A program made the position numbers and the translations under genes. 64,000 nucleotides of DNA, from positions 1 through 64,000 of the IMG/VR virus record IMGVR_UViG_3300025276_000027; one strand, written 5' to 3'. Shown one piece after another: positions 1,283 through 43,996 of the stretch. Each line of letters starts with the position of its first letter. The stretch's first letter is position 1. Source of the DNA: a virus. The notes under the pieces were generated by a model. The model worked only from the letters and a program-made list of their open reading frames with translations, made no database searches and had not been told where the DNA came from.

Positions 1283-1283
1283 A

Positions 1284-1424
1284 ATGAGTACAGAACAATC
1301 AAACGGAAACACCCAGTTAAATACAGAAAGAAATAAACTTAATAGTAGAGTCTCTAGATATAGAATGCTAGGGCAATCTAAAAAAGTAGTATGGGATGGT
1401 GCAAGAAGAAACAGAACAATTTAA
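1284..1424 (+). CDS. Small basic protein between nrdB and nrdA
   Basis: This 46-codon ORF starts one base after the nrdB stop and ends 10 nt before the nrdA ATG, which is the spacing expected of a real gene in a compact operon. The product is hydrophilic: an Asn/Gln/Thr-rich first third followed by a basic part (SRVSRYRML, then SKKVVWDGARRNRTI) with an Arg-rich end. There is no signal peptide, membrane segment or Cys. I recognise no family. It could be a conserved small phage protein acting with the reductase, or filler. It is in a different frame from both neighbours, so it is not a broken piece of either. Confidence 0.6.
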   Translation: MSTEQSNGNTQLNTERNKLNSRVSRYRMLGQSKKVVWDGARRNRTI

Positions 1425-1434
1425 ATAAACCAAT

Positions 1435-3875: not shown

Positions 3876-5135
3876 CTATTTAAATGAAAAGTTTAATCCT
3901 ACTGAAGTATTATATAATTCACTATCCCACATTTTTGCATACTCCCCTTCAAAAAATATACCTAAATTTTTATTTATTTTCCAACCAAAATTAGCTCCAA
4001 AAGAATAGTCTGCCCATTGTTCTGGATCATTATCTAATATTAATCCACCGTTACCCCAGTTGTTTCTATTCAAATAAGAAACTACCTCATCACCTTTTAG
4101 ATATCTATGGTATGGTAATATATAATTAGCATATGCATGCAGCCAAAAGTTTCTTTTATAATGATAAAAGTCTATTCCTACTATTGGTGCTACCTCACCA
4201 AATGCAGGTATCTCTGCCAATGCTTCTCTATTGAAGCGGTTCATCAATTCTGTAAACACACCTTCTCTAAAATCAATATCAGAATAAGCTACTATATTTC
4301 CATCAGCATCTTTCCAAATCCAATCTTGTCTTTCTTCTCCTGTTACTGCATCTGTATAAGTTGTGAAGTGATCTGTGTATCCATATTCAAATCCTAAAGT
4401 ATACCATGGGTGTGATGGAAATTCAACTGGGTTACCATCTTGATCTAAAAAAGGATTACCATTTTCATCATAAAATTGTTCAGTTTCATTAAGCCATATC
4501 TCAATTGGGTTGTAACCATAAGCACGGTCATGAGTTCTATAGATTGCTCCTGCAGAAATACTAAACTTCTCTCCTATAGGTAATCTTAATCTTGCTTCAG
4601 CAGACTGGTAAGCTAAGTTTATCTTTCCTACTTCTCTTGACTCAACTTTAACTATGTGATATTTACCTGTATGTTTTATAAAGAACCTGTGATTTTTAAA
4701 GTTTTCACCTCTCCAGCGTTCTTTCTCCCAATGTAGCTGATACTCTAAACCTTTCAATGCAGAAGTAGGAGCACTAAATGCTAGCTGTTCTTCTGTACCA
4801 TCATAAAAGTTTCTAGGCTTTCTTTCATAACTAAACCTTGCTAGTTTTCTAATACCAAAACCAATTCTATAATCATGTGGATAGTCAGGTGTATTATCTA
4901 CAACAACAGGTATATCATAGAGTCCATCTCCATCCCCTGTTCTAACAAAGTAGGTTGACTCTTCAGCTTCTATTGAGTTGTTTATGTCACCTGCACCGTA
5001 GATAGTACCATACTGTAAAAAGTCTTGATATAATACTTTAAAAAATTTACCTTTTTCTTTTGCTTCTTGTGAGTAAGAAGCATTAGGTAAATTAAGAAGT
5101 ACAACAAAAACCAACAGACTTAAATAATTTTTCAT
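3876..5135 (-). CDS. Predicted outer-membrane beta-barrel protein
   Basis: Residues 1-22 form a signal peptide (YLSLLVFVVLLNL, then SYS before QE). The 397-residue mature part lacks long hydrophobic helices and instead shows alternating, aromatic-rich strand segments, for example YHIVKVESREVG, WLHAYANYILPY and YSFGANFGWKI. The C-terminal strand LYNTSVGLNFSFK resembles the final barrel strand recognised by the outer-membrane assembly machinery, with Phe as penultimate residue. Polar loops carry a repeated D-x-N/D-G-N-P pattern (DENGNPF, DQDGNPV near the middle), possibly calcium-binding or simply loop-forming. A phage-coded barrel could alter the host surface late in infection, for example to block superinfection, or help release progeny. 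It begins a three-gene envelope cassette. A soluble beta-rich protein is not excluded. Confidence 0.7.
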   Translation of the reverse strand: MKNYLSLLVFVVLLNLPNASYSQEAKEKGKFFKVLYQDFLQYGTIYGAGDINNSIEAEESTYFVRTGDGDGLYDIPVVVDNTPDYPHDYRIGFGIRKLARFSYERKPRNFYDGTEEQLAFSAPTSALKGLEYQLHWEKERWRGENFKNHRFFIKHTGKYHIVKVESREVGKINLAYQSAEARLRLPIGEKFSISAGAIYRTHDRAYGYNPIEIWLNETEQFYDENGNPFLDQDGNPVEFPSHPWYTLGFEYGYTDHFTTYTDAVTGEERQDWIWKDADGNIVAYSDIDFREGVFTELMNRFNREALAEIPAFGEVAPIVGIDFYHYKRNFWLHAYANYILPYHRYLKGDEVVSYLNRNNWGNGGLILDNDPEQWADYSFGANFGWKINKNLGIFFEGEYAKMWDSELYNTSVGLNFSFK

Positions 5136-16900: not shown

Positions 16901-19900
16901 ATCATCTCTTTCAGATGCAGAGTATACTATAGTATTACCAGCATTATCTCTTTCATTAAATAAATAATCTACCCTAAAGTTTTCAAAACCTTTAAGTATA
17001 GATTGAAATAAAAGAGGAGATTGTATTTCAGTAGGTATACCATTATCTTTTAATAACTGTTCTTTGGTTATTCCAACATCATTTAAAATTCTTTGTACTA
17101 TAGCTCCAGTTTCTGAATTGTCTTGTCCAAAGAAATACATACTTTGAAGTATCTGTTTAGGGTCAGTTAAATTCTTTACAGCTTTTAATAAACCATTATA
17201 TGCTTCTACAAAATCAACAGCTATTATTAATGGCTCACCATTTGTTAATTCTACATTTCCAAAGTAATCTGTTGCTTCTACAGAAGTTGTTGCAATATAA
17301 GCTCTAAGTTGACTAGATAGAGATCTAAAACCACCAATCATTGATGCATCCTTTTCATACTCTGTTGTAGATCTTATACCCGTTGCGTCTTCAAATTCTT
17401 CTACTTCATATCGTTCATTATCTGATTTGTCACTTATTTGATTTATGTATGCTATACTTTGTTCTCTTATTGTGGCACTATAATTATCAAACGCTGATTG
17501 TATTTCATTTAACTTCACCTTCTGCAGATCAGTCTTATTTTCATTAATTGGATTATCAATACTGTATAACCATTCAAAGTCATCCAATACAGAATCCATT
17601 TGATTTTTAGGGTTATAAGATTCTGTTAATTTAGATACACGTTGTAAAAACATAGCTGATATATTTCTGACTAATGGATCTGCTATATCACTTTCTAAAT
17701 AAATAAATCCTAAATTTCCTTTCTCAGTTATTGAGTTATAAGGTATTAATGCATTTGCTTCTATTGTAGCTCCAACGTTTAATGCTGTAGTAAATTCATT
17801 ATTTGCTATTTGTGCTCCTTTAAATTTACCACTATCAATATTTTCAAATAGAGTACGCAATTCATTTTTTGAATATGAATTAAATACAGACTGAATCCAA
17901 TCTAGAATTCTAGTAAATAAAGATTTAACACTTGCATCAGTATTGGTATTCTTAGGGTTTATTTTAAACTTGTTAAATTCATCTGCTAGATATTCTTCAT
18001 AGTATTGATTCTCTAGTTCTTGCCTAGTCATGTTACTATATGTATCTGCAGAGTTTTTAAATTTCTGTAGTTCTTTCTCAAAGCTTTTTCCTTCAGCTCT
18101 AAGTTTAGCTCTTACTTCTTTTCTAGCAATATTTCTATATCTTTTTATTTCTTCATCACTAAGTAGCATTCTAAATACACCGTGAAAAGCTTCATGATAT
18201 TTATAAGGAGAAAGTGCACCAGTATAAATAGTTCCAGATACCTTTTGTCCACCAGCCACATGATTTAACCCTAATACAAAGGCACCAACACGTACACCCC
18301 CTGCTTTTAAATTATTACCTAATGTAGTTATATCAGATATATTCATATAACCAGGTAAGTTGTTTGCAGCCCAATCAGTAAAGACATCTATATCCTCTAC
18401 ATCTGTCAAACTAAAATCAGAAGAAGACATAATTTTATTAGCTTCTTTTTCAATTGCTTTTCTTTGAGCTAATAATTTTTGATACTCTTCACTTGTTCTA
18501 AGAGTCTTACCTCTATCTTTAGGTGCTACACCCTCTAATAGCTGCGTCTTAACAGTTTCAAGTTGTTGTTTTATATCTTCAAGATTATTGATTTGTTGTG
18601 TTGCTGGCTGCTTACCGTCTCTAAACATTTGCCAGCTAGATTTATTATTTCCAACTTGTGGAATACTATCATCTAATCTATCTTGAATATAGTCAACTAT
18701 GATACCCATTTTGTCCATAGTAAAATCATAGTTCTTGTTTATTCTATTCAGAACCATTTGTCTACCTACTTCTTGTGTTATCTTTCCGTTCTTTATGCTT
18801 TTCTCTATTATCTTTATGTAATTCTCTATAGAGTTATCTTCTTCAGCTTTTGCTTCTTTACCATAATATATGGTACTACCATCCACGTCTTTATTTTTAG
18901 TCTTAGTTCCAAGAGGTTGTGTACTATTACCTCTACTTGCAGCACGTTTTGCTTCATATAACTTAGTAATAAGACTCTGGAATTTAGCTCTATCTTTATC
19001 AGCAACCTCTGATGTAACAGGATCTCTTAAAGCTTGAATCTGTTCCTCAATAGTAGATACAGCATCATCAAACTTTTGATTTGGATTAGATGTTGAAACT
19101 TGCTCACTAGTGTTAAGTCCTAAGAAATTTTGAGCTTTAACTCCTAATTGATTTAATACAGCGTCTATTTCCTTCTGAGAAGTAGCAAGACCATTCATTT
19201 GGTTAGGTACTCCTTCAAACTTACCAATTAAAAAGAATTTTACAGATCCATCTGGACTTGTTGCTTTTATTATCTCGGATCCATTTTCATTGTTTTTAAT
19301 TATTTGATTTACAATACCTCCTTTTATGTTCTTTTGTTCAAAAGTATAAATACCTTCTACCCTAGAAAAAGCTTCAACCCCACTAGTTTGTTGTAAACCT
19401 TCTCCACCTCTTTGAGATACCATTACATTAATAGTAGCAGCTCTCATATTATAAACTTCTACTTCTCTTGATGTTAAATTATCTACACCCTCTTTAACAA
19501 TTTTATTTGCTATATGGTTAATAAATTCAGAAGGGAGTGTAAGGAAATCTTTAGCTGCAAATTCAGCAAATGCGAGATCACTTAAGTCTAATAAACTAAA
19601 CTCTGCTTCTTCTGAAGTAAAATTAGATTCATCTATTTCAGTATTTTCTACTACATCTTCTTTTATATTACCCTTATCTATTTCAGCTTGAATAGCAGAA
19701 GACTCACCTGTAGCTCTAGCAGAACTATTTAATACTACTTCAGGTCTTACATTAGTTGTTGTTAAATCAATAATTTCATTAGCAGATGTTGCTGTAGGAA
19801 AAGATTCTCTAAAGTTCTTATTTGATAAAGTAACTTTTGTTGCTTTAATGTCGGCATCATTATTAAAATCTTTTATTAATGACTGTATAAATCCAGTAGC

Positions 19901-28547: not shown

Positions 28548-31500
28548 TTACATACCCATCTTTCCACTATAAAATGGAAATGATTTTGGTAACTTTTTTA
28601 TTTCTTTTCCTTTTTTAAGCTGTACATTTGATCCAGGATATCCAGGAATACCACGTTGTTGCATATCAGCTTGACCCTTTGTAGTTCCAATAGCAGGTAT
28701 ACTACTATTACCTAAAGATAAATACCTATCTAAAAAAGCAGCATCTATCTTTTGATCTGCCGGTAAATTCTTTCTTAGCTTAGTATATGCATTTAAAAAA
28801 GCTTCTTGTTGATCTACCTGATTTGATTTGTATAATTGCTGACCATTTTCAGTAAACTCTACATCACCATCCTCTTGTGGGTTAATATTATAATAAGGAT
28901 ATAATGTGTTTAAATTATTAGTAGTTGATGCATTAGTTATCATTGCATTAAAGAGTTCATTGTTTTTAGCAATTTTTTCATTGTCAAAATTTGTTTTATT
29001 TTGCAATGCTAACACTGTATCATCATATAAACCTTTGTCAATAGCCTTATTTCTCATATCTGTTTGTGCTTTCATTTGAGCATCCATAGATGCAGCACGG
29101 TTCATGAATTGAAGGTTTGTTCTGTTTGTTGTCTCCTGTGCTTGTGTTATAGCATTTAAACTTTTTCCTTGAACATTATTTCTTGCTATTGCTTGAGGAC
29201 CACCATAAGCGCCTAATGCATTTACCATAGTGTTTTGTGCTCCCATGATTGCATTAACTTTACCAGTATAATCATCTAATACATAATCAATTTTCTGTTC
29301 ATCAAGTTTAGGTGACCAAGGTAAATACAAATCATCTTGTATAGCTGCTAAAGCCATTAAGTTATTTTGATCTTGTCTCCATACTTCTTTTACAGGACCA
29401 GGTGTATTTTCTATCTCTGTAGTTGTAATCTTTTCTGGTTCTTTAGGTAAATCAATAAAGCCTTCTTGTTCTGCTACAAAGTCTACATCAAATCCAGGAG
29501 CATTAAATACTTTTGTTCCCGCTTTTCCATCAGCCTTAGATGCAGTTTCCCCACTTCCAAAATAAGATCTATACGGTGCACCTACTTTTTTATAGAATTT
29601 CTTTCTTTCTTCTTCATATAAATTTTGAAACTTTAACCATTGAGGGTCTTTCTTTCCTTTATTATAATCAAAGCCTTCTATTTTTGCAGCTATCTTACCA
29701 TTCCTTCTCATCCAATCTTCCTTGGCTGCATCTGATGCATATGCGTCTGAACCATACCAACTATCCTGATTACCTGTAGAATATTGTTTTACAGGTATTT
29801 TACCATCAGCGTACATCCCATAATCAAAATAACCTATATCTGATGAATTAATTACATCACCAGCACCCCTTTCATCATCACTATATATTGGATCTCCTAT
29901 TTCAGATGAACCAATTATATCTATTGATGTAGTATCTTCATTACCTTTTTTACCTTCAAAGTTAGAAGATGGTCCTTTATAATATCTTAATTTACCATCA
30001 TCAGTTACATTAAATGTAAACCCTTGAGATTGTTTTTGTTTAATAAGGTTATAGGTATCACTTCCTACTGGAAAATATGACAATGGATCACCACTATTAT
30101 TAGATGATGGTTTTTGTTTTATTTCTTCTATGTTATTATTAACTTCAGTTATTACTTCTTCAGACTGAGTATTATTAACGCTACTATAAGTTTCATTAAA
30201 TACTTCTTCTGTAATGCTTAAATCTCCAGTAGTATTCCTATTTTTATCATCAAACACATCATAATCTTCTATATTAACTAAAGCTTTACCATACATTTTA
30301 ATCTCATCATCAGATAAACCTTCTATAAATTCTGAACTTACTTCACCATCAAAATTTCTATGCATGTTACCTCTAATCATTCTATCAACATATGCAGCTC
30401 TATCAACAGGTTGCCCATTTATTTGATAGTTTGTATTACCGGTTAGTACTTGTGAACCATCTGATAAATTCATAACAGTATCAGATGCATTATTATTTTC
30501 TCCTACTGTTTCTTCTTCTGTTTCTAAACCTTCTTGTATTTGAGGTCTAACCAGTTTACCTTCACTATCAAAAGTAACTTGTTCTATTTCAACATATTCA
30601 CCATCTTTAAACTGATAACCTTGACCTGTGTTTTTATTTAGATAATACTTACCTTCTTCAGCTAGTCTAGTTGGAGGTATAAAATATGTACCAGGTTCAG
30701 TGTTAAGAACTCTGAAACGTGCATCTTCTTCATCTACTGTTTCATATACTATTTCTTCACCTGCTTGTGCTCTCTTTAAAAAGTCTGACATTTCATTACC
30801 AAACCTAGCCATAGGCATTATATCATTATTTGCTTGAGCAAGTTGCATTTGATTAGCAGAATCTATTGGTGGTGCTTGCATATTTTGTGGAGGCATAACT
30901 TCCTGTTGTTCAGATTGAGATATCATCTGCTGTAACATCCTTAACTGATCTTGTTCTTCTTGTGGTAATTTATCTATTGCATTTTGTTGAGCTTGCTGCA
31001 TAGATATTTGTTCAACACTAGCTGTAAACTCTAATGGATTTAAACCTTGAGATACTAAAAAAGGATGTGATGCTAAAGGAACACCATCCTCAAAATTCTT
31101 TTTTGCTTCTTGCATAAAAGATAATTTAGAAAGATCCTCCATGTTTTTCTTTAACATTAATTCAGCACTTCTAGAAGAAATGTTATCTGAAAATTGTGAA
31201 TTTAGTTCACCATAAAAATCATTTAATCCAAACTTTTTAGAAATTTTAGCTGGTGTCTTTTTAGATCCACCCATATCAAACTCAGCCATCTCATTTTTAG
31301 TAAATTTTAATTTAGGTGTATCAGAATAAATAAAAGACTGTTCAGGTAAAAACATAGGTACACCACCTTGTGAGTGTCTTGGACCTGTAATGTTATAAAG
31401 ACCAAAGTCTCCATTGTTATTTAAATCAGATAAAACTGTTTCTCCACCTTCAGCTTCTATATTAGCCTCATCTCTTGGAACACTAGATAAACTATGTCTA

Positions 31501-31688
31501 ACAGATTCATCATTTGTATTATTAAACATTGTTTGTCCATAATATTCTTGTGGGGTTGTTACCAAACCATAATCAGCTTGATCACCAGATCTTAAACTGC
31601 CACCATCTTGCATTACTTGATCTTCAACAACTTTGCCGTCAACAAGTTTAAATCCTTTTGGTAGTTTATTTATTTTAATCTTTGCCAT
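28548..31688 (-). CDS. Cargo-type virion protein, Gln-rich
   Basis: This 1046-residue protein starts MAKIKINKLPKGFKLVDGK. Residues 75-125 contain EAEGGETVLSD, GPRHSQGGVP and FLPEQSFIYSDT, a pattern I remember from large virion proteins encoded beside the polymerase in crAss-like phages. A Gln/Met-rich low-complexity stretch runs from about 225 to 290 and acidic, Asn/Ser-rich stretches follow. It carries copies of the recurrent Gln-x-Gly-Gly motif (MQDGG at 26-30, SQGG at 107-109). The C-terminus is basic (KLPKSFPFYSGKMGM). No enzyme motif is visible. The gene starts 2 nt after the stop of the 1307-aa gene, so the two are translated from one message. The likely role is a packaged internal protein. 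Confidence 0.7.
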   Translation of the reverse strand: MAKIKINKLPKGFKLVDGKVVEDQVMQDGGSLRSGDQADYGLVTTPQEYYGQTMFNNTNDESVRHSLSSVPRDEANIEAEGGETVLSDLNNNGDFGLYNITGPRHSQGGVPMFLPEQSFIYSDTPKLKFTKNEMAEFDMGGSKKTPAKISKKFGLNDFYGELNSQFSDNISSRSAELMLKKNMEDLSKLSFMQEAKKNFEDGVPLASHPFLVSQGLNPLEFTASVEQISMQQAQQNAIDKLPQEEQDQLRMLQQMISQSEQQEVMPPQNMQAPPIDSANQMQLAQANNDIMPMARFGNEMSDFLKRAQAGEEIVYETVDEEDARFRVLNTEPGTYFIPPTRLAEEGKYYLNKNTGQGYQFKDGEYVEIEQVTFDSEGKLVRPQIQEGLETEEETVGENNNASDTVMNLSDGSQVLTGNTNYQINGQPVDRAAYVDRMIRGNMHRNFDGEVSSEFIEGLSDDEIKMYGKALVNIEDYDVFDDKNRNTTGDLSITEEVFNETYSSVNNTQSEEVITEVNNNIEEIKQKPSSNNSGDPLSYFPVGSDTYNLIKQKQSQGFTFNVTDDGKLRYYKGPSSNFEGKKGNEDTTSIDIIGSSEIGDPIYSDDERGAGDVINSSDIGYFDYGMYADGKIPVKQYSTGNQDSWYGSDAYASDAAKEDWMRRNGKIAAKIEGFDYNKGKKDPQWLKFQNLYEEERKKFYKKVGAPYRSYFGSGETASKADGKAGTKVFNAPGFDVDFVAEQEGFIDLPKEPEKITTTEIENTPGPVKEVWRQDQNNLMALAAIQDDLYLPWSPKLDEQKIDYVLDDYTGKVNAIMGAQNTMVNALGAYGGPQAIARNNVQGKSLNAITQAQETTNRTNLQFMNRAASMDAQMKAQTDMRNKAIDKGLYDDTVLALQNKTNFDNEKIAKNNELFNAMITNASTTNNLNTLYPYYNINPQEDGDVEFTENGQQLYKSNQVDQQEAFLNAYTKLRKNLPADQKIDAAFLDRYLSLGNSSIPAIGTTKGQADMQQRGIPGYPGSNVQLKKGKEIKKLPKSFPFYSGKMGM

Positions 31689-31690
31689 AA

Positions 31691-34600
31691 CTATAACATT
31701 TCTATATCAGCTCCCGCTGCAATTAATTTAGCTAACATTTTAGGATCTACATTTACTGTCTCTCCTCCTTTTTTTAACCCTTTCAATTTCATTGCTTGTC
31801 TAATACCAAATTTTGTTATTCCACTAGCATCATCATAAAAAGGTTGTTCATAAACATAATCTCTTACTTCTTCTTTATTTATACCTGATTCTTCTAAATA
31901 TTTTTTAATATCTCTTTTCTTAACGTTACTAAAGAAGTCTATACCTTCACTAATACTGCCAATATTCTGTGCTTCATTATAAATATTAATAATTTCTTCC
32001 TCACTTCCAGGAGATAAGTTAAGTAATTTTTGCATCATAGGATTAGCCATCATACCACTACCTAATACAGTTGCTAAATTAGAACTACCAGGTATTCCTC
32101 CCTGAGCTTTAGATAGTTCTCTTTGTATAACTTTATTTCTATTAGCTAAGTAAGCAGCCTCACCTCTTTCACCACCATATTCATTCTTTGGAAGCATCTT
32201 TAACTTAGATAAATTATCTTTTAAAGACATTTCAAGCGGCTCAATACCCATTGGTTCAAGAGTACTTATAGATTCAGGTGGTATAAAAAATTTACCAGAA
32301 TCTAATTCAGATTGTAAACCAGCTAATTTATCATTTAAATTATTTGTTGAGCCAACATATCTTGTTACTCTTAGTCCTGAATTAGGATCACTAGTATCTT
32401 GAATACCCTTTATTGCATTTAAAGATCTATAGTTAACACCACCATCTACTCTACCACCACTATTTTCCATCATTATAGGAGAACCACTTTCATCATAATC
32501 TCCAGTAAATATCATTGTGTGAGCATTTCCCTCTCCACCAGAAGTACTATAATTAGATACAATTCTATCACCCGGTTGTAAATCTGAATATCCAGCATCC
32601 ATCAATTGCATTTGTAATCCACCTCTATTATTTTCAATCATACCATTTAATTGACTGTTACCAGAAATAATTGGAATTGGTTTGCCATCAGCAGTTGTTG
32701 CACCTGCTGATCTCATTATACCACAACCATAACTTGTACACCCATAACCAGCAGTTGTACCACTTTTTAACCAATTTCTAGTTACTGAAGGTACGGTATC
32801 TAACCCAGATACCTTGTCTCCATACTCGTCCACACTTACATCAAATATAGAACGTTTAATAGTACTATCATCTCCTAGTATCTCTGTTAGTTGCTTTTGA
32901 ATTTCTTCATCATTTTCTCCTTCTTTACTAGTTATAAGTCCACGGTATATTTTATCAATGTTTGATTGATAGCTTAAAAGTCTTTCTTGTTCTGTAGTAA
33001 GCTGACCTTGTGTTGCTGCAATCTCTGCTTCAATCATTGCTTTAGTTCTACGATTATTTAGAGGCGTTTCACCTTTCACTTGATATTCTTCTAAATCACC
33101 TGTAAAAAGTTTTAATGGATTAAATGGATTACCACCCATTTGCATTCTTTTCTGAAAATTGTCTAACTCAAAGTTTTCAGACTGTGATGGTAATTGCATT
33201 AGTTGTGAATTATTAAATAATCTAGTAACTAACATTTTATCATATGAAGAATCTTTCTTAAAGTTTGGTAATTGAAAATCTACTGATTGTTCTGCTAAAG
33301 ATGTTAAGAATTCATACTGTGGAGTCATTGGTACAAACTCTATTTCATTAGCTCCTGTAATAGCATCTAATTGTGCTTTAGTTGGCATACCTGGTATCTG
33401 TTGTCCAGGAACACCCCCACGTTGCATGTTTTGTAATATGTTTGCTTGTGCTTCTGGGGGCAATGCTTTAAATCCAGCATTATTTGTACCACCACCATAC
33501 TTTGATAGTTGAGTATATCCAGTTACTTTATCTGCTTCAGGATATAGACCGCTGTTAATATCAGGGCCTTTACCTCTTTTAAATAAAGGATCGGTTGAAG
33601 TAGCATATGTGTTATCCGCATTTAAGTTGTTTAAAAAATTAATTGCTCTATCATCATCAATCTCATCTTCTAAATAATCATTAACGTTACTTGCTGCTCT
33701 TACTGCAAAAGAACTACCTCTTTTTGCAGCTTTTGCAAACGCTGTATCTGGGAATCTAGATATTCCTCCTAGTATACCACCTGAATCAATATCTATACTT
33801 GGAAAGTTTATATTACCAAATAATGAATCAGCACTCTCTTGATCTTCATCTTCACCTGTTTCCAAAACACTAAAAGTATTTACATATGCTTCATACTCTT
33901 GTGGTGCATTAGCACCAGTTCTCCTAACAGTATCTTGCATAACCCACTCTTTAAAAGTTAATGGTTGCCCACCATTTTGAGCCATGGGTATTGAACTAAA
34001 ACCAGGAGTGTTAATTATAGCATCATATGTACTTTGTGCTGATGTACCTAATTTACTAAGATTTTCCTTAAGCCAATCTTTGCCTTTATTTAGTTTGCTA
34101 TTTATATCATTCTGATTAATCTGCACCTTATCTTTAAGGTTAGGTAAATTACCTCCGTTTGGATTTTCTATATTATATTGTGTTAAATAATCATTTACAG
34201 CCTTTACATTTTCTTCTGAATCATCTACATTTATATTATAAACTGAATTAGCATATTTATTTGCTTGATTAGCTGCAGCATCTGCTGCTAAAGTATCAGG
34301 AGCACTTTGTATACCAGTAAATAATTCTCCTGCTAAACCAACTGCTTCACCAAAAGACCATCTTTTTCCACTATGAAACATATTAGGTGAAACATAAAAA
34401 GGATTTGTAACATCACCATTATCTACTTTTACCTCTTCTTTATTTATTACATCTCCCTTATTATTTTTTATAACAGTATTACCTTTGTTAGCAAATTGAT
34501 TAGCTAAATCAAGTATTTCTTGGCCTGTTTCTGCTTTATCAGTATAGCCAGCTTCTTCAAGTCTAAGTTGTGTTTCTATATCCTTAGCTCTTATCTTTCT

Positions 34601-35614
34601 TTTACCCTTATACATAAAGCGTGGTTCAAACGCACCACCTGCTTTAAATTGAAGTTCTTCAGATTCAGGAGGAAATAATGGTTTATCTTTTTTTGATGGA
34701 TTTATTAAAGGTAAATTTTTATAAACTTGTTTTAAAGAATCCACCTCAGATTGTCTAGGATATATATTGTCACTAAACATATTATTATCTTTGTCTTCCC
34801 ATTCACGCTTAAGGTTTTGTGCATTCCTCCAATTTTGATATTGTGTTGGAAATTGTTGTTCTTTACTTGCGTTATTTTGATTTATTATATTTTGTTCAGC
34901 ATCAGTATTACCAAATTGATTTACTGCAGGTGAAGAACCACCTTGTTGTTTAAATCTTGGATCTAAAGTGTACTTTCTATTAGGGGCATTATAAGAACCT
35001 TCTCTTTGTCTTACTCCTTCTGTATAGCCTGTTCCTCCACCTTCTTGTTTTTTAAACTTAGCAGCATTCTTTGCAAAATTAGCCATCTTAACTATAGATG
35101 GGGGGTATCTATCTTTATTAGACATAACCTTCCTAGCTGCTTCTTGAACGCTCATACCACGTGCCTTAGCCCATGCTGTAAACTTACCTTTATTTTCAGG
35201 TTTAATCTCTATCCCAGATTTAGCCATTTCAACAGGATCTATATTTATATCTAATCCTTCTTGTCCTTCTTGTATGTCTTGTTGTCTTGCTAACTGTTGA
35301 GGGTCTTGATTTATTTGTTGAGGTGTTGGATCAGCAGGTTGTTGTTGTTGTTGAATATTTTGAAATAAAAGTTCTAGATCTTTCTCTTGATAACCTATTG
35401 CCATAAGTGCTTGTACAATAGTATTTTGATCTACTTCTTGTTCAATTAACCCCATTACAACTTCTTCAGGTTTACCTCCTTGGTCAATGGATTCTTTAAA
35501 AAACATGCTAATTTGTTGAATAGCAGGATCAACCTTTGGTTGTTGTTGCATACCAGGTTGTTGAGGAATCATTTGTCCACCTTGCTGTTTTACACTTTTT
35601 TTGTTTAAATCCAT
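31691..35614 (-). CDS. Cargo-type virion protein with NlpC/P60-like cysteine peptidase domain
   Basis: The 1307-residue product opens with a Gln-rich low-complexity region (1-125). Next is a compact basic-helical motif at 141-190 (NKGKFTAWAKARGMSV ... MANFAKNAAKF) that I recall from phage virion proteins. Around 940-1060 lies a papain-like fold: GYGCTSYGC (C959, less likely C964) at the start of a helix ending RSAG, LQPGDRIV (1012-1019), AHTMIFTGD (H1032) and N1051. This is the Cys/His/polar order of NlpC/P60 and CHAP peptidoglycan hydrolases. It could open the cell wall during entry, or cleave virion proteins. Ten or so Q-x-G-G-type motifs are spread through the chain, for example IPMAQNGG at 542-549 and MQRGG at 730-734. 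The gene has its own upstream promoter-like motif and ends in TAG. Confidence 0.75.
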   Translation of the reverse strand: MDLNKKSVKQQGGQMIPQQPGMQQQPKVDPAIQQISMFFKESIDQGGKPEEVVMGLIEQEVDQNTIVQALMAIGYQEKDLELLFQNIQQQQQPADPTPQQINQDPQQLARQQDIQEGQEGLDINIDPVEMAKSGIEIKPENKGKFTAWAKARGMSVQEAARKVMSNKDRYPPSIVKMANFAKNAAKFKKQEGGGTGYTEGVRQREGSYNAPNRKYTLDPRFKQQGGSSPAVNQFGNTDAEQNIINQNNASKEQQFPTQYQNWRNAQNLKREWEDKDNNMFSDNIYPRQSEVDSLKQVYKNLPLINPSKKDKPLFPPESEELQFKAGGAFEPRFMYKGKRKIRAKDIETQLRLEEAGYTDKAETGQEILDLANQFANKGNTVIKNNKGDVINKEEVKVDNGDVTNPFYVSPNMFHSGKRWSFGEAVGLAGELFTGIQSAPDTLAADAAANQANKYANSVYNINVDDSEENVKAVNDYLTQYNIENPNGGNLPNLKDKVQINQNDINSKLNKGKDWLKENLSKLGTSAQSTYDAIINTPGFSSIPMAQNGGQPLTFKEWVMQDTVRRTGANAPQEYEAYVNTFSVLETGEDEDQESADSLFGNINFPSIDIDSGGILGGISRFPDTAFAKAAKRGSSFAVRAASNVNDYLEDEIDDDRAINFLNNLNADNTYATSTDPLFKRGKGPDINSGLYPEADKVTGYTQLSKYGGGTNNAGFKALPPEAQANILQNMQRGGVPGQQIPGMPTKAQLDAITGANEIEFVPMTPQYEFLTSLAEQSVDFQLPNFKKDSSYDKMLVTRLFNNSQLMQLPSQSENFELDNFQKRMQMGGNPFNPLKLFTGDLEEYQVKGETPLNNRRTKAMIEAEIAATQGQLTTEQERLLSYQSNIDKIYRGLITSKEGENDEEIQKQLTEILGDDSTIKRSIFDVSVDEYGDKVSGLDTVPSVTRNWLKSGTTAGYGCTSYGCGIMRSAGATTADGKPIPIISGNSQLNGMIENNRGGLQMQLMDAGYSDLQPGDRIVSNYSTSGGEGNAHTMIFTGDYDESGSPIMMENSGGRVDGGVNYRSLNAIKGIQDTSDPNSGLRVTRYVGSTNNLNDKLAGLQSELDSGKFFIPPESISTLEPMGIEPLEMSLKDNLSKLKMLPKNEYGGERGEAAYLANRNKVIQRELSKAQGGIPGSSNLATVLGSGMMANPMMQKLLNLSPGSEEEIINIYNEAQNIGSISEGIDFFSNVKKRDIKKYLEESGINKEEVRDYVYEQPFYDDASGITKFGIRQAMKLKGLKKGGETVNVDPKMLAKLIAAGADIEML

Positions 35615-35633
35615 TTCACTAATATTATATTAT

Positions 35634-35644
35634 TAATATACAAA
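35634..35644 (-). promoter_or_regulatory. Late promoter-like motif
   Basis: An exact copy of TTTGTATATTA on the minus strand, followed by ATAATATAAT and the start codon at 35614, which is 19 nt away. It lies in the 61-nt gap after the 655-aa gene and would drive the 1307- and 1046-aa genes. Confidence 0.55.
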
Positions 35645-35675
35645 TTCTCTAGGAGATTTGCTAATCTTTAAAGGT

Positions 35676-37643
35676 TTAAGAGTTTGAAATTATATAAGAT
35701 GCAATAAAATTAGTAACACCAATTCCACGTTCTTTTGCATCTTTATAATACATTCTATTTAGTTTATCATATACTTTTTTAGCATACTGACTTTCATCTT
35801 CTCCATTTATATAATTCATGTATGTTTTACTTACATCTTCAGTTGATCCTCCATCTTGTTGAATTTGTATAAATCCATTACGTTGAATTTGTGGTGAAAA
35901 TTCTTCGGGAGGATCTGGTGCAAATACTTTACCATCTGCAAATACTCCTGATTTATATTTTTCTACTAATTTATTAATTGTATCTTTTTCATTTAAATTT
36001 TGATTCCCAACTAATGATCCTACATAATTATTATATATATCTTGTAGTGACTCTTTGCCTTTTATTGACCAAGGGCGTTCATCTTTTCCAATAGTTACTG
36101 CTTCATGACCTATTCCAGCTAAATTTGAACCAATAAACCCTGCTGCATTATCAACACCAAAAAAATCTAATACACCACCTACATAAGGAATATCTCTTAC
36201 TTTTTGTTGTAGAACTTTAGATGTTTTTGCAGAAGATGATGAATGTCTTAATGGATCCATTCCTTCATTTATTAAATCTTTTGTTTCTTGATATATAGGA
36301 TTTGCCACATTCCAATCTGCTTGTTGTTTTCTAAGTGCAACAACTCTTTTATCCATTTCAAAGTCCCTTCCCCTTTTCAAACCATTATCATAATCTTTAT
36401 CTCTATATTCTTGATAAATAGTAGCAATCTGGTTTTCTATATTTTCATCAAAATCATGAAATGTTTTCATTTGATCTTCTGAGAGTATTTGGCCAATATT
36501 ATTTATTTTACCCATACTATAACCTAACCACTCATTTACATCTTTTTCTGCATCTCTTAATGAATAATCATATGAACTACCTTTTTGTCCATCTAAGTTT
36601 ATACTATCTTGAGCTTTAGGTAATGTTTTAACTTTACCGTTCTTAGTTCTAGCATATCTATTTGATTCTGTTTCCATGCTAGGAATAAGTGAACCTGAAT
36701 ATGATTTACCTTTCCATTTCCAACTTACTGAGCCACCTCCTTTTTTCTTTTGAATATATTTTCCTGAATCTTTATCTTTTTCTACATATATTCTATCATA
36801 TATTTCAAAAGGTTTAGTTAAACCTAATTTCTCACCAAAGTTTATATTACCACCTAAACCTCCGGCTTGGTCAAACTTATCATAATAAGATATATACATA
36901 CCATTTTCATCTTCCCCAAATCCTGTAAAATAATTACCAATAGCATTTAATTGGTGATCATCAATATCATTTACTTCTTTATAGCCTGTAACTTTATAAT
37001 TATTTTTATCTAGTTGTTTTTCATTATCATTTACATCCAGTATTAAATCAGGTTTAGTTTCATTGGTATAAAAATTTCCATTACTAACTCTATTATAATT
37101 ATCTATAACTTCTTGAACAAGTTGTTGATTTTTATTTAGTGATATATATTTAGCATCTGGATCTTTTGCTTTTGTAGGTTTAGTATTACTAACTTGAAGA
37201 ATATTATCTTCTAATGGTCTACCAGAATAGTATCTATATAAGTCAGCCAATCTACTGTTATGATGTTGATGATTTGCAAAATCTCCTGCAGCTAAAGCAC
37301 TTAAAAAAGGAATACCTTTAAAATCTCTAAATTCTCCATTACCTCCCTGTGCCATAGGTATTTCAAGTACTTGATCTCCTGGAAAACTATAATTTGTACC
37401 AGGTGTCATTACTTCTTTATTGCCTAAATTATCTATACCAAGTAAAGGTCCTTTTTTTAATGGGCTACCATCATTTTCACTCATGCTAATATTACCTGAC
37501 TCAATAAGATTAACTGAATTGTTTTTATCAGGACTATCATATCTATATCCCTCAACAGAAGCAATACCTGTAACATATGTTATATCTTCATTAGGTCCTC
37601 CGGGTAATCCACGGCTTTTTATGTAATTAAAATCTTCTCTCAT
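35676..37643 (-). CDS. Cargo-type virion protein, unrecognised
   Basis: The 655-residue product begins MREDFNYIKSRGLPGGPNED. It shares with its downstream neighbours the motif IPMAQGG (95-101), a second form LPKAQDS further in, and QQDGG near the C-terminus (about 50 residues before the end), which suggests the same class of internal virion protein. The middle is charged and helical (for example DFDENIENQIATIYQEYRDK). A small Gly/Ala hydrophobic patch (GFIGSNLAGIGHEAV) lies in the last third. No enzyme motif is visible. Its start codon overlaps the stop of the 2117-aa gene as TAATG, so translation is coupled to the tail protein. Confidence 0.65.
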   Translation of the reverse strand: MREDFNYIKSRGLPGGPNEDITYVTGIASVEGYRYDSPDKNNSVNLIESGNISMSENDGSPLKKGPLLGIDNLGNKEVMTPGTNYSFPGDQVLEIPMAQGGNGEFRDFKGIPFLSALAAGDFANHQHHNSRLADLYRYYSGRPLEDNILQVSNTKPTKAKDPDAKYISLNKNQQLVQEVIDNYNRVSNGNFYTNETKPDLILDVNDNEKQLDKNNYKVTGYKEVNDIDDHQLNAIGNYFTGFGEDENGMYISYYDKFDQAGGLGGNINFGEKLGLTKPFEIYDRIYVEKDKDSGKYIQKKKGGGSVSWKWKGKSYSGSLIPSMETESNRYARTKNGKVKTLPKAQDSINLDGQKGSSYDYSLRDAEKDVNEWLGYSMGKINNIGQILSEDQMKTFHDFDENIENQIATIYQEYRDKDYDNGLKRGRDFEMDKRVVALRKQQADWNVANPIYQETKDLINEGMDPLRHSSSSAKTSKVLQQKVRDIPYVGGVLDFFGVDNAAGFIGSNLAGIGHEAVTIGKDERPWSIKGKESLQDIYNNYVGSLVGNQNLNEKDTINKLVEKYKSGVFADGKVFAPDPPEEFSPQIQRNGFIQIQQDGGSTEDVSKTYMNYINGEDESQYAKKVYDKLNRMYYKDAKERGIGVTNFIASYIISNS

Positions 37644-40600
37644 TACCTCATTGATAATTGTAGTTTAGTATTGTTTAATCTTAATAGCATTTTTCTATTA
37701 TCACCACCTTTAGTTATTGATCTATTTTTTCTCAATATAACATGATTTGAATAATGTCTAAATTTCTTACGTTGTGTTGCAGATTTTTGATAATTTAAAT
37801 TAATAGGATTTAATGGTCTTATATACCCGTTACAATCAGTATTAAATATAGATTGTTCAGCATTAGTAAATTCACCTCTATCATTAGTAATATCCCAAAA
37901 TTGATTAAACCTAAATTTATGCTCCACCTTTGAAACTTCTATATTAATATCATCAGTACCTATACTTGGATATTGTAAATTACCCCAAGGATCATTATAC
38001 AATGCATTATTTAAAAGTAATAAACCAGATGTTTGATCATTATTATATACAATAGCTGCATCAAAATTATAATCTAAATCCTCCCATTTATCACCACCAC
38101 ACATGTTATATTGTGGATCTCCTTTGTATACATATGTTTCTAATTGATATTCAAAACTTCTTACAGTATTAACTGCTTGTCCTGTATTAGATATTAAATC
38201 TATTTCCCATGGATAATTAATATTATAAAAATTGGCATATGAATCACATCTTATATTATGTCTCCAGAATCCACCTACTTCAAAATTTGGTTGTGTACTC
38301 TCAAAAAAGAAATAATTACATCTTCTTGGATCTGGTTGTATAAATGCAGGATCTCCTATTTGATATATTAAAGGTGCTGAATCTGGACATGTACCAACAG
38401 CAGTCACAACTGTACCAGGAATTGTTACAGGTGGACAAGAGCAAGTTACCTTTTTACATATTGGTTGAAGTACATCATTACACTCACCTGATGACTCTGT
38501 ATAATTAAATGTTGTTGGATTAGGATAAACTATTGTATAACCTGCAGGACATGCACAAACAAAATCTGTTCCACATACTGATCCACCAATTGCTGTTGCA
38601 ACAGGCGTTATAGTAGTTGGGTCTGCAGCATTAATTCCAAATTGATATGGATCAACATTTACAGGACCAGAAGTCATTGATATATGACCTAACACATCAG
38701 CATCAGTAGGTGCAGAATTAGTAGCACCACAAAATATTGCATATAAAAATTGGTTTGCAGGTCCAAATCCAGTTCCAACTGTATTAGATTGATATGGTCC
38801 ACCCACTACACCTGGGTCAGTTGTTGTATCAGTAACAAATAATATTACTCTTCTATAGTTTGCGTTACCACTTCTATCACCTAATTCAGAAGCATTTGCA
38901 GCATTTAGTACACCTACAGCACCATTTAATCCAGCAACAACTTCAGTACCTGGATAACTACCCCAGTTATCATCATACCATTGATCTACATATGCTATAT
39001 TAATATTAGAAGACATACTAAAATTACCACCAGCACCATTTGGAAGAGGCACTGTTTCACTTCCAACTCCCCATTGAGTAAAACCAATTTGCATTTGATC
39101 ATTATTCATAAAAGTTTGAATTTGAGGATCATTTAAAAAACCATTTAAAAGAGCCAATTGTGCTCCTCTTCTTCCTGCCCGATCAGTACTACCTGATGTA
39201 TCCATAGCAAATACTACATCAACTAAACAATTTGTAGGCCCACCAGTTACTACTCCATCAGTAATAATATCTACTAATACTGTAGCATCTTTAGTTTCAT
39301 TATTTGCTATTTCACATAGTTCTGTAACAGGATTATAAGTATATCCAGGAGGACATTGTGGTATAGTAGTAGTTAAAGTTTTTGTAGTAAAGAAATGATT
39401 AATACTTGGTAAAGCTAACTCAGGATGCCAGTCATGAAAAGATATCCATGCTTTAACCTTTGGATCATAACTTATAGTCCATGAACAATCATCAAAGTAA
39501 AGCGGATCTCCTATATCTATTGGAGCTGAAATACCTGTTAATGTATTAATAGTAATTGGCTTAATATCTCTATCTATAAATGTAGCTGTACTAATAAATT
39601 CTGGTTTAAGTTGGTAATCTTTCTTCATAAAATAAACAAGATCATCAACAGAATCATACATGACTTGACAACCAACACCAAATACGGGGTTATCTGTCCA
39701 CACTGAAGTTTCTGAATTTGGAAATTGTTTTATAAATCTTGATGGTAAATACTTAGCAAACCACCATTTCATGCCTGCATTAGATATAGGGCTGAGCCCT
39801 TTACCACCGTATTGAAATATTTTACCTTGTTGTTGTGATATAAAAAATAAACCTACTGGTGTATTTATTACACCTCTTATACTTTCACATGATCCAAACT
39901 CAGTTGATATATCTGCATTAGCTACATTTTGAAATGGTTGACTAAATAATCCACCATCACCAATAGTTAATTTAGTATCTAATTGAGTTTTTAAAGTATC
40001 TAATCCTTGGAACATCTGTGGTGACAAATGTGGGAAAAATATTAGTGCACCACTTTTATTTATAGGTTTAATTACACTAACATCATTTTTAAAATCTTTA
40101 TAATTATTATTTAAAAACACTCTCCAAAAATCTTTTCTGGATTCTTCTTGTGCTTGTAAAGAATATATAAGTCTCTTTGGATATGATACAAAACAATTTT
40201 CTGCAACTAATGGATCATAATACGTAGGTTGTACTTGACCAAAAGAAGTTAATTGCGTAGCAAATTTAGAAGGACTTAATGACTCATCATATTTATAAAA
40301 ATTACCTTCTTTTTCTATTTTTGCATGAAAGAGTTCATCAATATCATTATAGTCATATACATTGTATATTCTTTTTGCAGGCTCATCTTTCCATTCTCTT
40401 TGGGTTAAATTTATTTCTGTTTCAACAAAGAAATCCGTTATGCCATTTACATGAGTATACATATATGCATACTCCATATTAAATGCAGGATTAGGATCAG
40501 ATGAATTAAATATTGCAGCAAATCCAGATGAACATGAATCATTACCTCTATCTAAATAAAATAAATCATTTGGTATTAAGTTATCTAGAGCACTTGTATT

Positions 40601-43600
40601 AACAATTGATAAAGAAGCTATCTCTGAAGCTAGTGGGGTAATATCATATCTTTGTGAGTTTAACCAAAATCTTGGATATGGTATATTTACATACAATGAA
40701 TAATTATATGTAAAGTCATCAGGTTGTCCTAATAAATAATTTGTAAATATAGGCATGATAACTTTTTCAGTATATCTACATATAAATGTATCACCAGCAA
40801 AAATAGGATCACTACTATATAAATACTCATCCGGTTTAGTTGAATCTAAAAGTTCAACACAACCTCTAAGTTGTACTTGTTTTATTCCAGCAAGTTGACC
40901 ATATTGATTATCAAAGTTAAATTTAAGAGCTCCGTATTTAGCGGATATATTTGTTTTTCTTGTTTGTCTTGGATCTAATAAATATTGATCACTAAATTCA
41001 TTTACAACAGATTGATCTACATTAGTAAATTCACCATCTGCATTTAAATTTAATGACATGTCTCCACCAATTACATATCTTGATTCATCAATTACAGATG
41101 GATCTCTAAGAGGATTTTCTAGACTTACAGCTACTGTCTCAGGTCTAAATAAATTATTTATTTTATATTGTCCACTATCAAATGTTTGGAATGAAGCACC
41201 TATATAATTAGATGCGTTATTTTTAATTCTCCATAAACCATTTGTTTGATTTGAAAAATCTGAAAAGAAACCTAAAGAATTATGTTTCCAAACAAAATCT
41301 GAATGATTAATCATATTATAAAACAGATCAATAATTTCATTTCCCCCTATAGCTATATTTGCTTGTAAAGTAAATATACTTGTAAGTGTTCTAAATACCT
41401 GTGGTAAGTTTGTTTCAGATGAATCTCTATCTCTGTTAGTTTCCAAGGCACCTGAATTAACACCAGGAATTCTTCCTTTTAATCCTTCTGCTGTTGTTGC
41501 AGCTTTTTCAGTTATAGCCGTAGCTAATCCACCAGTATATAAATCTACTATTCCACCTAAAGTATCTAGCAAAATACTTATTACTGTACTAGTTGTTGCT
41601 GAAGTAGTAGTAGCTGCACCTGCGGCTGCTACATATGCTGTTTGTTTAGAAGCCCACGGTTGTTTCCAATCACCACCTCTTATTGCTCCACCAGATCTAC
41701 CATTTAAGTTTACAGTAGCAACACCAGGTGGTACGGTTAGAGAAATAAATCCTCCACCACCACCTTGTGCATCACCATCAATTTCTTCCCCTATTCCAGA
41801 CTGACTAGTTAAATTACCAGTTGAATAAGTTTGTTTACGGGAAGTTGTTCCTTTTAGTTTATGACAGGCATAACCAAAACCTATGATAGCTCCAATCCAT
41901 GCACCACCACCTCTTAATAATTTAAATTGCGGATGATCTTCTGATGGTTTAAAAAACCCAGATGCTGCTCCACTTACCTCTCCATATATTCTAGATTCAT
42001 ATGCATTTAAGAAAGGTTGAGTAAACATTAAATCTGGTGAGTGAAATGTAAATACTTTTCTTGAAAATCCTGTTGGCTCACCATCTACATCAACTCTATC
42101 ACCTAAAGGCTTAAAATAATCACAAGACTCTTGAAAAGTATTACAGCCATCTGTTCTATTTAAAGCATCACCATTTATACCATCATGAAAATATACATCT
42201 GGTCTCAAATCATTATAAGGATAGTTAGGATATAACCCCTGTACATCTCCACCTATTAAGTTTTCAGTATCAGGAATAGTATACTTACGCATATTTTTAA
42301 ATAAACCTTTTGCCAATATAGACTTTGCTCCTAATCTTGATCCTTTTAATATTTCATAACCAACAACATTTTGAATAAATGAACCATCATTATATTTTGG
42401 ACGTGCTATATTATCAAATTGTACACCAAGGATGTTTATTAAATCTCCTGATGTATTACTTATATTTAATGGTGAACCAATAGATTCATCCGGCATCTTA
42501 TGATGCCTTATTGGAACACCACATAAGTCTCCCCATATATCTGGTCTATTTGATGGATATCTTTCAGTAGATTCCCAATATCCCATCTTCCCTTTTGCTA
42601 TTATATTAGTACCATCCCCAAGTGGTTCAGAAGCTACTGAAGTTATTGATGCAGTATTATAAACTTTAAATAAAGGGTCTCCAGAAGAATCTAATACATT
42701 TGAACCAAATATATCTGCATTTTCTAATTCTATTGAACCATTCGGTAATGTATAATTTTGTGGAGCTCTACCTGGTATATGATATGAGGATGATCTTTCT
42801 CCAGTGTTATATATCCATCTTATAAAAAATGCATATTGTTCATCTCTCAAGAAATTCATTTTATTACCCCCTTTAGAATAATAATCATCTTGAACACTAT
42901 TAATACACCAATTTACTTGAATGTTATTAGCATCTGGTTGATAGTTAAAATCAAATTGTTCGGTTGGTCCTTGTCTTATTAACCAATCATTCACAACAAA
43001 CATTGATTCAGATTTTTCATATGCAGGACTACGTAAAGGTATTTGTACTAAATCTATAGCTATTAATGATTCATCTATATAATCAATATTAATATTCTTT
43101 TGTTGTGTGTTATAAATCCCTAATCTTTTTGCAGATGTTTGTCCCTGGTTTCTTCTAAGTATTACTAATTCATAAAATTCATAATCTTTATCTAAATTTG
43201 AAATAGATATATCAAGTGAACCGGCTGTACCATCAATATTCCATAATGTTTGAATATTAGATATACCTATATAGTCAGTTACTTTAATTTCATTTTCAGT
43301 ATATGCAATAAATGCTTGATATGCTCCATTAGCTAACATACCACCATCAGTTGCTTTACTTAATGCAACACATGGTGTATCAACTAATGGTGCTAATCTA
43401 ATTTGTTCACAATCTAATCGTTTAGGTTGTTGATCTTCATATACAACACATGGGTCACCATCAATATCTGGCCCCGATATCTGTATTTGTTTATATGGTA
43501 TTTTATCTATATTTAATGCTCTTGATGGATTGTTACCATCATCCCAATATACTTCCCAAGTACAATCAAAGTTTTCTTTTGCTGCACCGGTAATTAAATA

Positions 43601-43996
43601 CTTTCTATTAAAACTTAAACAAGTGTCATTAACTAATGTAGTATATTTACATTGGCTATCATCAAATGTTCCTATTTCTGAATTAATATCATCTGTAGAA
43701 TATATTATCCATTCATCACCATATCTATGTATAGCTCCAATAACTGTATATGGTATTACACCACATTGTAAATTTGATGGCTCATTACCTACAACACCTA
43801 AGTCTCCATCTAAAGAATTGTTTACTAAATTTCGTGCATGCCACCATGATTGGTTACTTTCCAAAGATGGAGTAATATCCTTATTCATTCCTTTACTAAA
43901 GGAATTTGTTTGTATAGATGAACTGCTTTGGGATCTAGGACTTCTCCTGGATCCCTTACGGTTACTATTAGAAGAAGAGTTTCTCTTTTTAGCCAT
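37643..43996 (-). CDS. Large tail (muzzle-like) protein with vWA insert
   Basis: The 2117-residue protein begins with a basic Ser/Arg-rich tail (1-30) followed by FSKGMNKDITPSL and HARNLVNNSLDGDLG, a start pattern I associate with the large tail-tip or muzzle protein of crAss-like phages. It is beta-rich and aromatic throughout, with Cys pairs. Residues 1590-1790 form a von Willebrand A domain with metal site D1599-T-S-G-S1603. It is flanked by Cys-rich pieces of the form CPxGY (QCPPGYTYNPVTELCE before, CACPAGYTIVYP after), resembling small disulphide knots. The vWA could bind a surface protein or glycan through Mg2+. It follows the ring-like gene after 14 nt and is coupled to the next gene by TAATG. 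The identification as muzzle is by size, start motif and order. Confidence 0.73.
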   Translation of the reverse strand: MAKKRNSSSNSNRKGSRRSPRSQSSSSIQTNSFSKGMNKDITPSLESNQSWWHARNLVNNSLDGDLGVVGNEPSNLQCGVIPYTVIGAIHRYGDEWIIYSTDDINSEIGTFDDSQCKYTTLVNDTCLSFNRKYLITGAAKENFDCTWEVYWDDGNNPSRALNIDKIPYKQIQISGPDIDGDPCVVYEDQQPKRLDCEQIRLAPLVDTPCVALSKATDGGMLANGAYQAFIAYTENEIKVTDYIGISNIQTLWNIDGTAGSLDISISNLDKDYEFYELVILRRNQGQTSAKRLGIYNTQQKNINIDYIDESLIAIDLVQIPLRSPAYEKSESMFVVNDWLIRQGPTEQFDFNYQPDANNIQVNWCINSVQDDYYSKGGNKMNFLRDEQYAFFIRWIYNTGERSSSYHIPGRAPQNYTLPNGSIELENADIFGSNVLDSSGDPLFKVYNTASITSVASEPLGDGTNIIAKGKMGYWESTERYPSNRPDIWGDLCGVPIRHHKMPDESIGSPLNISNTSGDLINILGVQFDNIARPKYNDGSFIQNVVGYEILKGSRLGAKSILAKGLFKNMRKYTIPDTENLIGGDVQGLYPNYPYNDLRPDVYFHDGINGDALNRTDGCNTFQESCDYFKPLGDRVDVDGEPTGFSRKVFTFHSPDLMFTQPFLNAYESRIYGEVSGAASGFFKPSEDHPQFKLLRGGGAWIGAIIGFGYACHKLKGTTSRKQTYSTGNLTSQSGIGEEIDGDAQGGGGGFISLTVPPGVATVNLNGRSGGAIRGGDWKQPWASKQTAYVAAAGAATTTSATTSTVISILLDTLGGIVDLYTGGLATAITEKAATTAEGLKGRIPGVNSGALETNRDRDSSETNLPQVFRTLTSIFTLQANIAIGGNEIIDLFYNMINHSDFVWKHNSLGFFSDFSNQTNGLWRIKNNASNYIGASFQTFDSGQYKINNLFRPETVAVSLENPLRDPSVIDESRYVIGGDMSLNLNADGEFTNVDQSVVNEFSDQYLLDPRQTRKTNISAKYGALKFNFDNQYGQLAGIKQVQLRGCVELLDSTKPDEYLYSSDPIFAGDTFICRYTEKVIMPIFTNYLLGQPDDFTYNYSLYVNIPYPRFWLNSQRYDITPLASEIASLSIVNTSALDNLIPNDLFYLDRGNDSCSSGFAAIFNSSDPNPAFNMEYAYMYTHVNGITDFFVETEINLTQREWKDEPAKRIYNVYDYNDIDELFHAKIEKEGNFYKYDESLSPSKFATQLTSFGQVQPTYYDPLVAENCFVSYPKRLIYSLQAQEESRKDFWRVFLNNNYKDFKNDVSVIKPINKSGALIFFPHLSPQMFQGLDTLKTQLDTKLTIGDGGLFSQPFQNVANADISTEFGSCESIRGVINTPVGLFFISQQQGKIFQYGGKGLSPISNAGMKWWFAKYLPSRFIKQFPNSETSVWTDNPVFGVGCQVMYDSVDDLVYFMKKDYQLKPEFISTATFIDRDIKPITINTLTGISAPIDIGDPLYFDDCSWTISYDPKVKAWISFHDWHPELALPSINHFFTTKTLTTTIPQCPPGYTYNPVTELCEIANNETKDATVLVDIITDGVVTGGPTNCLVDVVFAMDTSGSTDRAGRRGAQLALLNGFLNDPQIQTFMNNDQMQIGFTQWGVGSETVPLPNGAGGNFSMSSNINIAYVDQWYDDNWGSYPGTEVVAGLNGAVGVLNAANASELGDRSGNANYRRVILFVTDTTTDPGVVGGPYQSNTVGTGFGPANQFLYAIFCGATNSAPTDADVLGHISMTSGPVNVDPYQFGINAADPTTITPVATAIGGSVCGTDFVCACPAGYTIVYPNPTTFNYTESSGECNDVLQPICKKVTCSCPPVTIPGTVVTAVGTCPDSAPLIYQIGDPAFIQPDPRRCNYFFFESTQPNFEVGGFWRHNIRCDSYANFYNINYPWEIDLISNTGQAVNTVRSFEYQLETYVYKGDPQYNMCGGDKWEDLDYNFDAAIVYNNDQTSGLLLLNNALYNDPWGNLQYPSIGTDDINIEVSKVEHKFRFNQFWDITNDRGEFTNAEQSIFNTDCNGYIRPLNPINLNYQKSATQRKKFRHYSNHVILRKNRSITKGGDNRKMLLRLNNTKLQLSMR

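Follow-up and report, generated by a model that had tools for sequence, protein, structure and literature searches.

We found a short, conserved sequence motif, (L-P-K-)A-Q-x-G-(G-E), at the joints between interchangeable modules in two large proteins that a clade of phages related to the Crassvirales probably ejects into its bacterial hosts. These joints, which we call seams, seem to follow a single standard across the clade in how they are built or read.

The window analyzed here spans 64 kb out of a virus record of 77.8 kb; all coordinates below are window positions, and all of the features described lie on the minus strand. Sequence matches place this phage with the Crassvirales, since we detected the Crassvirus major capsid protein (PF23898, 105 bits) and tail ring proteins 1 and 2 (PF24228, 28.4 bits, and PF25702, 68.8 bits), each against a cut-off of 27 bits. 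Along the minus strand, the genes for ring proteins are followed by those for a probable muzzle protein (2117 aa; 37643..43996), C (655 aa; 35676..37643), B (1307 aa; 31691..35614), A (1046 aa; 28548..31688), E (1081 aa), and F (a 4775-aa polymerase-type protein). The muzzle assignment reflects similarity to structural proteins of phages phi4:1 and Fpv1 and to the annotated muzzle of csAssE-Sib. A profile scan of public viral contigs yielded 80 loci in which this gene order is almost perfectly retained, and C and B are syntenic in the relatives, with C lying between the muzzle and B genes at about 85 loci overall. Protein A resembles cargo protein C1 (gp45) of crAss001 in a profile-profile comparison covering residues 75 to 181 (hhalign probability of 83% over 95 columns against a mixed set of C1-like proteins), and E resembles cargo protein C2 as judged by eye; the profiles of A and E gave no relevant match to PDB sequences. 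C and B are additional proteins between the muzzle and the C1-like protein, and their synteny and their relatives point to a place in the virion, probably as cargo ejected into the bacterial host.

An earlier note on this DNA had drawn attention to a recurrent Q-x-G-G motif, and all 13 of the strings it listed are found at the residues it gave in the minus-strand 1307-, 655-, and 1046-aa open reading frames. Relative to composition-preserving shuffles, Q.GG is in excess in the 1307-aa protein (6 versus 0.76 expected, P = 4e-4; P = 0.004 when the shuffles hold every Gly fixed) and in the 655-aa protein (2 versus 0.28, P = 0.03), but the 1046-aa protein, taken by itself, shows no significant excess (1 versus 0.45). 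In dereplicated relatives, observed and shuffled counts of Q.GG were 69 and 14.7 for the C family, 104 and 18.7 for B, and 25 and 15.4 for A, with control values of 12 and 10.2 for the muzzle, 13 and 10.9 for the 1081-aa family, and 10 and 19.0 for the polymerase. The pattern P-x-[AMY]-Q-x-G was found 102 times in the dereplicated C and B families versus 3.0 expected (66 versus 1.3 in C and 36 versus 1.7 in B) and 11 times versus 1.5 in A, while the muzzle (1 versus 0.8), 1081-aa (2 versus 0.9), and polymerase (0 versus 1.2) families showed no excess. Enrichment is limited to the C and B families and, weakly, A. Both patterns were again in excess in C and B from ten previously unused contigs from which similar sequences had been removed (12 versus 0.55 for P.[AMY]Q.G and 28 versus 5.8 for Q.GG), with counts of 0 versus 0.31 and 2 versus 3.7, respectively, for the E and F controls.

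The longest form of the motif is [YK]GGxLPKAQxG(G)E. When Q-x-G alone is used as an anchor, positions -4 to -1 favor L, P, K, and A, in that order, with 2.9- to 4.2-fold enrichment, and positions +3 and +4 favor G and E. Two places upstream of Gly-Gly-Glu, Lys, Gln, and Glu are preferred, so that Gln is common at this key position without being its invariant element. The motif proposed in the earlier note is real, but its definition as Q-x-G-G was too narrow for the clade consensus, and alignment of homologues retains the motif with Gly-Gly conserved more strongly than the Gln. The suggestion that a short motif is kept while its flanks change is borne out for these cargo-like proteins. The noted spacing through otherwise unrelated sequence also holds, and its cause, the borders of exchangeable modules, was not among the explanations offered. 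Two of the functions that the note did suggest, a processing site and a tether to a partner, are kept as candidates below. The number of motif copies is weakly related to protein length in C (Spearman 0.39, P = 0.012) and shows no significant correlation with it in B.

Our strongest test of position examined large insertions in pairs of relatives whose sequences align on either side of the insert. Of 34 cases in C, 20 had the indel border within 10 residues of a motif copy (5% expected, a 12-fold excess), as did 22 of 60 in B (7% expected, 5.6-fold), although certain relatives contributed more than once and the cases are therefore partly dependent. The control patterns PP, DG/NG, and QGxG occurred at indel borders at about the expected rate or below, and no such large indels were seen in the 1081-aa family. 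At one empty site there is a single motif copy (L058, VVKAQAGKEVKENTSWTAY), and filled sites have a copy at both ends of the insert, which measures 390 to 862 residues (L064, L061, L055, and L063). The edges of local similarity between relatives lie within 15 aa of a motif in 23% of cases versus 8% expected (2.8-fold), and most of the edge peaks in the window's C and B proteins coincide with motif copies, although an edge may also arise trivially where a linker aligns poorly.

The 655-aa protein C consists of a conserved N-terminal cap, a variable middle, and a conserved C-terminal cap. Among its relatives the total length ranges from 406 to 2185 aa, and the middle can be as short as a few hundred residues or as long as about 2000. 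Similarity to most relatives stops at about residue 101, just past the N-cap module (residues 9 to 94; 37362..37619) and at the end of the seam IPMAQGG (residues 95 to 101; 37341..37361), and 51 homology edges lie within 6 residues of position 107. A motif copy comes after the N-cap in 34 of 37 relatives, compared to 11% at random positions. Small edge peaks are seen at the seams KKKGGG (residues 299 to 304; 36732..36749), whose module comes right after the N-cap in L010, and LPKAQD (residues 341 to 346; 36606..36623), which matches P.AQ. The last seam, QQDGG (residues 595 to 599; 35847..35861; 31 edges at 593), precedes a helical C-cap (residues 600 to 655; 35679..35846; pLDDT 80 to 90) that is conserved in 44 relatives, all 44 of which have GG or AQxG ahead of it, 24 in the Gln- or Lys-anchored form. 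In the AlphaFold model, which predicts an N-cap beta domain at residues 42 to 99 (pLDDT 75 to 94), confident folding ends at residue 99 and resumes at 601, on two motif copies. A fold search with this model gave no significant match, and no named domain was found in the window's own 655-aa protein. Its relatives, however, carry lytic transglycosylase (SLT), LysM, and L,D-transpeptidase (YkuD) domains, including all three combined in one protein, as well as a peptidoglycan-binding domain, and 15 of 44 C proteins have an HExxH segment of their own.

Protein B is also modular. Its first seam string, QQGG (residues 10 to 13; 35576..35587), is present upstream of a small module, KGKFTAWAKARG (residues 131 to 189; 35048..35224), which is shared with Crassvirales members cr127_1, cr108_1, and jaberico and, by eye, with gp45 of crAss001. 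This module ends at QEGG (residues 190 to 193; 35036..35047), with 42 homology edges at residue 198. Further seams are found at QQGG (residues 223 to 226; 34937..34948; a minor edge peak at 220), IPMAQNGG (residues 542 to 549; 33968..33991; 27 edges at 546), MQRGG (residues 730 to 734; 33413..33427; 33 edges at 736), and MQMGG (residues 824 to 828; 33131..33145), the last of which precedes a mobile Cys/His module resembling CHAP or NlpC/P60 domains (residues 955 to 1075; 32390..32752). GYGCT and AHTMIF are invariant in this module in 7 relatives, and the best Foldseek match to its low-confidence model (pLDDT 41) is a CHAP domain (E = 0.13). We considered whether it could be a dedicated seam protease and rejected this idea; because few relatives have the module and it looks CHAP-like, it is more likely a cell wall hydrolase. 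The seam EYGG (residues 1145 to 1148; 32171..32182) has 14 edges at 1145. Near the C terminus, AQGG (residues 1170 to 1173; 32096..32107) and KKGG (residues 1281 to 1284; 31763..31774; edges at 1275) form the left and right borders of a module insertion about 110 aa long (residues 1174 to 1280; 31775..32095). The module is missing from L009 and L010, which have a single uninterrupted KAQGGETINVD at this site. It is followed by the B C-cap, ETVNVDPKMLAKLIAAGADIEML (residues 1285 to 1307; 31694..31762), conserved in L009, L010, L012, and L014.

In protein A, the GG but not the Q of MQDGG (residues 26 to 30; 31599..31613) is retained in relatives. A seam absent from the earlier note, RAQAGEE (residues 306 to 312; 30753..30773), coincides with 36 homology edges at residue 312. 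SQGG at residues 106 to 109 was rejected as a joint, as it falls within a folded domain whose sequence there, GPRH[SG][SQ]GGVPM, is conserved.

Downstream of the cargo genes, the 4775-aa protein F is conserved in 82 matched relatives; a Pfam scan of this open reading frame gave no polymerase match. It contains a putative zincin-like segment, HEAFH...EEYLADEF (17915..18247), a candidate processing peptidase assigned from its motif residues, HExxH and a downstream Glu. The HExxH is kept in all 30 relatives that reach this position, and a similar one is present in gp47 of crAss001. No Pfam peptidase model matched the window's HExxH region above the cut-off, and no SUMO-type cysteine protease was among the Pfam or PHROG matches of the scanned open reading frames.

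Since modules do move at the motif, it could be a side effect of recombination at short DNA repeats. However, codon usage at the motif is near background, the agreement of a genome's motif copies at synonymous positions is what codon usage predicts (identity of 0.52 versus 0.50 expected), and only 1% of copy pairs share 17 of 18 nucleotides. The random synonymous codons indicate that selection acts on the peptide and not on the DNA, and we regard the recombination explanation as very improbable. Chance occurrence in Gln- and Gly-rich proteins would agree with the unremarkable count in the 1046-aa protein alone, but it is hardly credible given the excess of 102 over 3.0 across the clade and its recurrence in the held-out contigs.

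How the peptide acts is less certain. In our first choice, with about as much to be said for it as against it, each seam would be an exposed flexible joint that lets each folded unit unfold and pass the narrow tail separately. Cargo proteins are believed to be partially unfolded in order to pass a tail less than 50 Å wide (PMC10172136), and an exposed flexible joint fits cargo for which the passage is this narrow. The stop and restart of confident folding on the seams of C and the starts of the resolved gp45 segments of crAss001, given below, also speak for this reading. Lysozyme, LysM, L,D-transpeptidase, CHAP-like, and metallopeptidase-like modules could then, we infer, be swapped without disturbing their neighbors. 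Flexibility, however, needs none of the L, P, K, A, and Q that are enriched around Q-x-G, and these side-chain preferences make recognition by something likely. The main rival, because of the conserved zincin-like motif in the co-encoded giant polymerase, is that each cargo protein is a polyprotein with cleavage sites at its seams, where the payload modules would be released from N- and C-caps serving as packaging tags; we consider this possible, though on balance improbable. The cutting agent would be the zincin-like peptidase of F or the peptidase modules of the cargo itself. Specificity around both Q-x-G and Gly-Gly-Glu, the nearly constant separation of caps from payload by a motif copy, the copies at both sides of inserted modules, and the HExxH segments of F and of the C proteins all favor processing, as does a proposal of zincin cutting for polyvalent proteins (PMC5512222). 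Against it, the polymerase has no motif excess, its HExxH region lacks a Pfam peptidase match, and gut crassviruses retain a similar HExxH without the LPKAQ form, so peptidase and motif are not tightly linked. Unlikely, in our estimate, is a third mechanism, in which each copy docks to a partner such as the ring proteins, the portal, or a chaperone and holds the chain in the tail or capsid. Docking would account for the specific residues and for the confinement of the motif to cargo, and portions of crAss001 gp45 do bind the portal and the tail barrel (PMC10172136). Yet the bound segments of gp45 that were resolved by cryo-EM start at or after Gly-Gly rather than being centered there: 425 to 552 starts at AFGG (425 to 428), and 214 to 245 starts four residues after AYGG (segment ranges from PMC10172136). 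Copy number also shifts with module insertions.

In crAss001, as in this phage, gp45 is encoded after the muzzle; it contains a KGKFTA module, and A resembles its family over the region given above. Unlike this clade, crAss001 has no LPKAQxG form, and the clade adds C and B between the muzzle and the C1-like protein. QxGG or LPKAQxG copies are also found just after the muzzle homologue in Cellulophaga phage phi4:1 (gp040 and gp041, annotated from virion MS/MS) and Leptolyngbya phage Lbo-JY46; these phages are distant, since neither the 1046- nor the 1081-aa protein has a tblastn match in them, and we found no description of their seams in the literature. Gly-Gly at unit borders is common to the seams of this clade and the polyproteins of African swine fever virus. 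In that virus, pp220 and pp62 have Gly-Gly before a variable residue at the unit borders of virion-internal proteins, and a cysteine protease of the SUMO type cuts the polyproteins. The polyvalent proteins known from phages and conjugative elements are large, multidomain, predicted to be injected, and equipped with peptidoglycan-active domains and zincin-like peptidases, and their processing by zincins is a standing proposal (Iyer et al. 2017, PMC5512222). The relatives described here share their trait of several disparate enzymatic domains per polypeptide, but a text search of that paper gave no repeated junction peptide, in contrast to this clade. Nor did we find a junction motif, polyprotein, or protease described for crass-like phages in the literature that we searched. 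Modular injected phage proteins are known; a clade-wide, standard seam at the peptide level appears to be new.

The domain content of the relatives suggests that this clade delivers cell wall-active modules into the host envelope. A more far-reaching idea, about which we are doubtful, is that this clade of DNA phages makes true polyproteins, with exchangeable cell wall-attacking modules held between packaging caps and cut at a standard seam, probably by a co-packaged zincin. The seam provides a sequence rule that divides otherwise unannotatable cargo proteins into units and should thereby aid in finding and naming their modules. It also makes testable the processing of ejected proteins in crass-like phages and the way in which a narrow tail lets long modular chains pass. 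Should cutting at the seams take place, these phages would possess a polyprotein system of a virus-like kind whose payloads can be swapped.

The C family comprises the 655-aa cargo-like protein and its relatives. Its conserved N-cap is also found at the beginning of phi4:1 gp040 (L092:28737-31424), a protein resembling C1 (gp45, a cargo protein of crAss001), and Leptolyngbya phage Lbo-JY46 has a short protein that starts with it as well (L094:24566-26053). In both proteins, the N-cap is followed by a Q-A-G-G seam, the short peptide found at module joints of the cargo-like proteins. In C-family relatives including L062, L078, and L079, the seam is immediately preceded by a Cys-rich element (...CNSC... 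...CHKCGGEALP[KTI]AQ), which is mobile and probably a small zinc ribbon serving as a module.

Within the 4775-aa polymerase-type protein, a zincin-like HEAFH...EEYLADEF segment (window 17915-18247, minus strand) had no Pfam match above the cut-off. It was conserved in every one of the 30 relatives whose sequence extends to this position, and crAss001 gp47 also has it.

The 419-aa protein (window 3876-5135, minus strand), without a PHROG or Pfam match, has a signal-peptide-like start and a barrel-like C terminus ending in F-S-F-K and could be a phage-encoded outer-membrane protein. Nearby, a gene for a small secreted thioredoxin-like protein (3187-3576, minus strand) adjoins ribonucleotide reductase subunit genes (302-3060, plus strand).

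Outside the window, L007 encodes a GroES/Cpn10 homologue (45 bits; L007:9168-9443, record 72167-72442) that overlaps the end of a terminase-like gene, and four successive small, very Lys-rich ORFs (63 to 96 aa; record 76431-77349) whose products possibly bind DNA.
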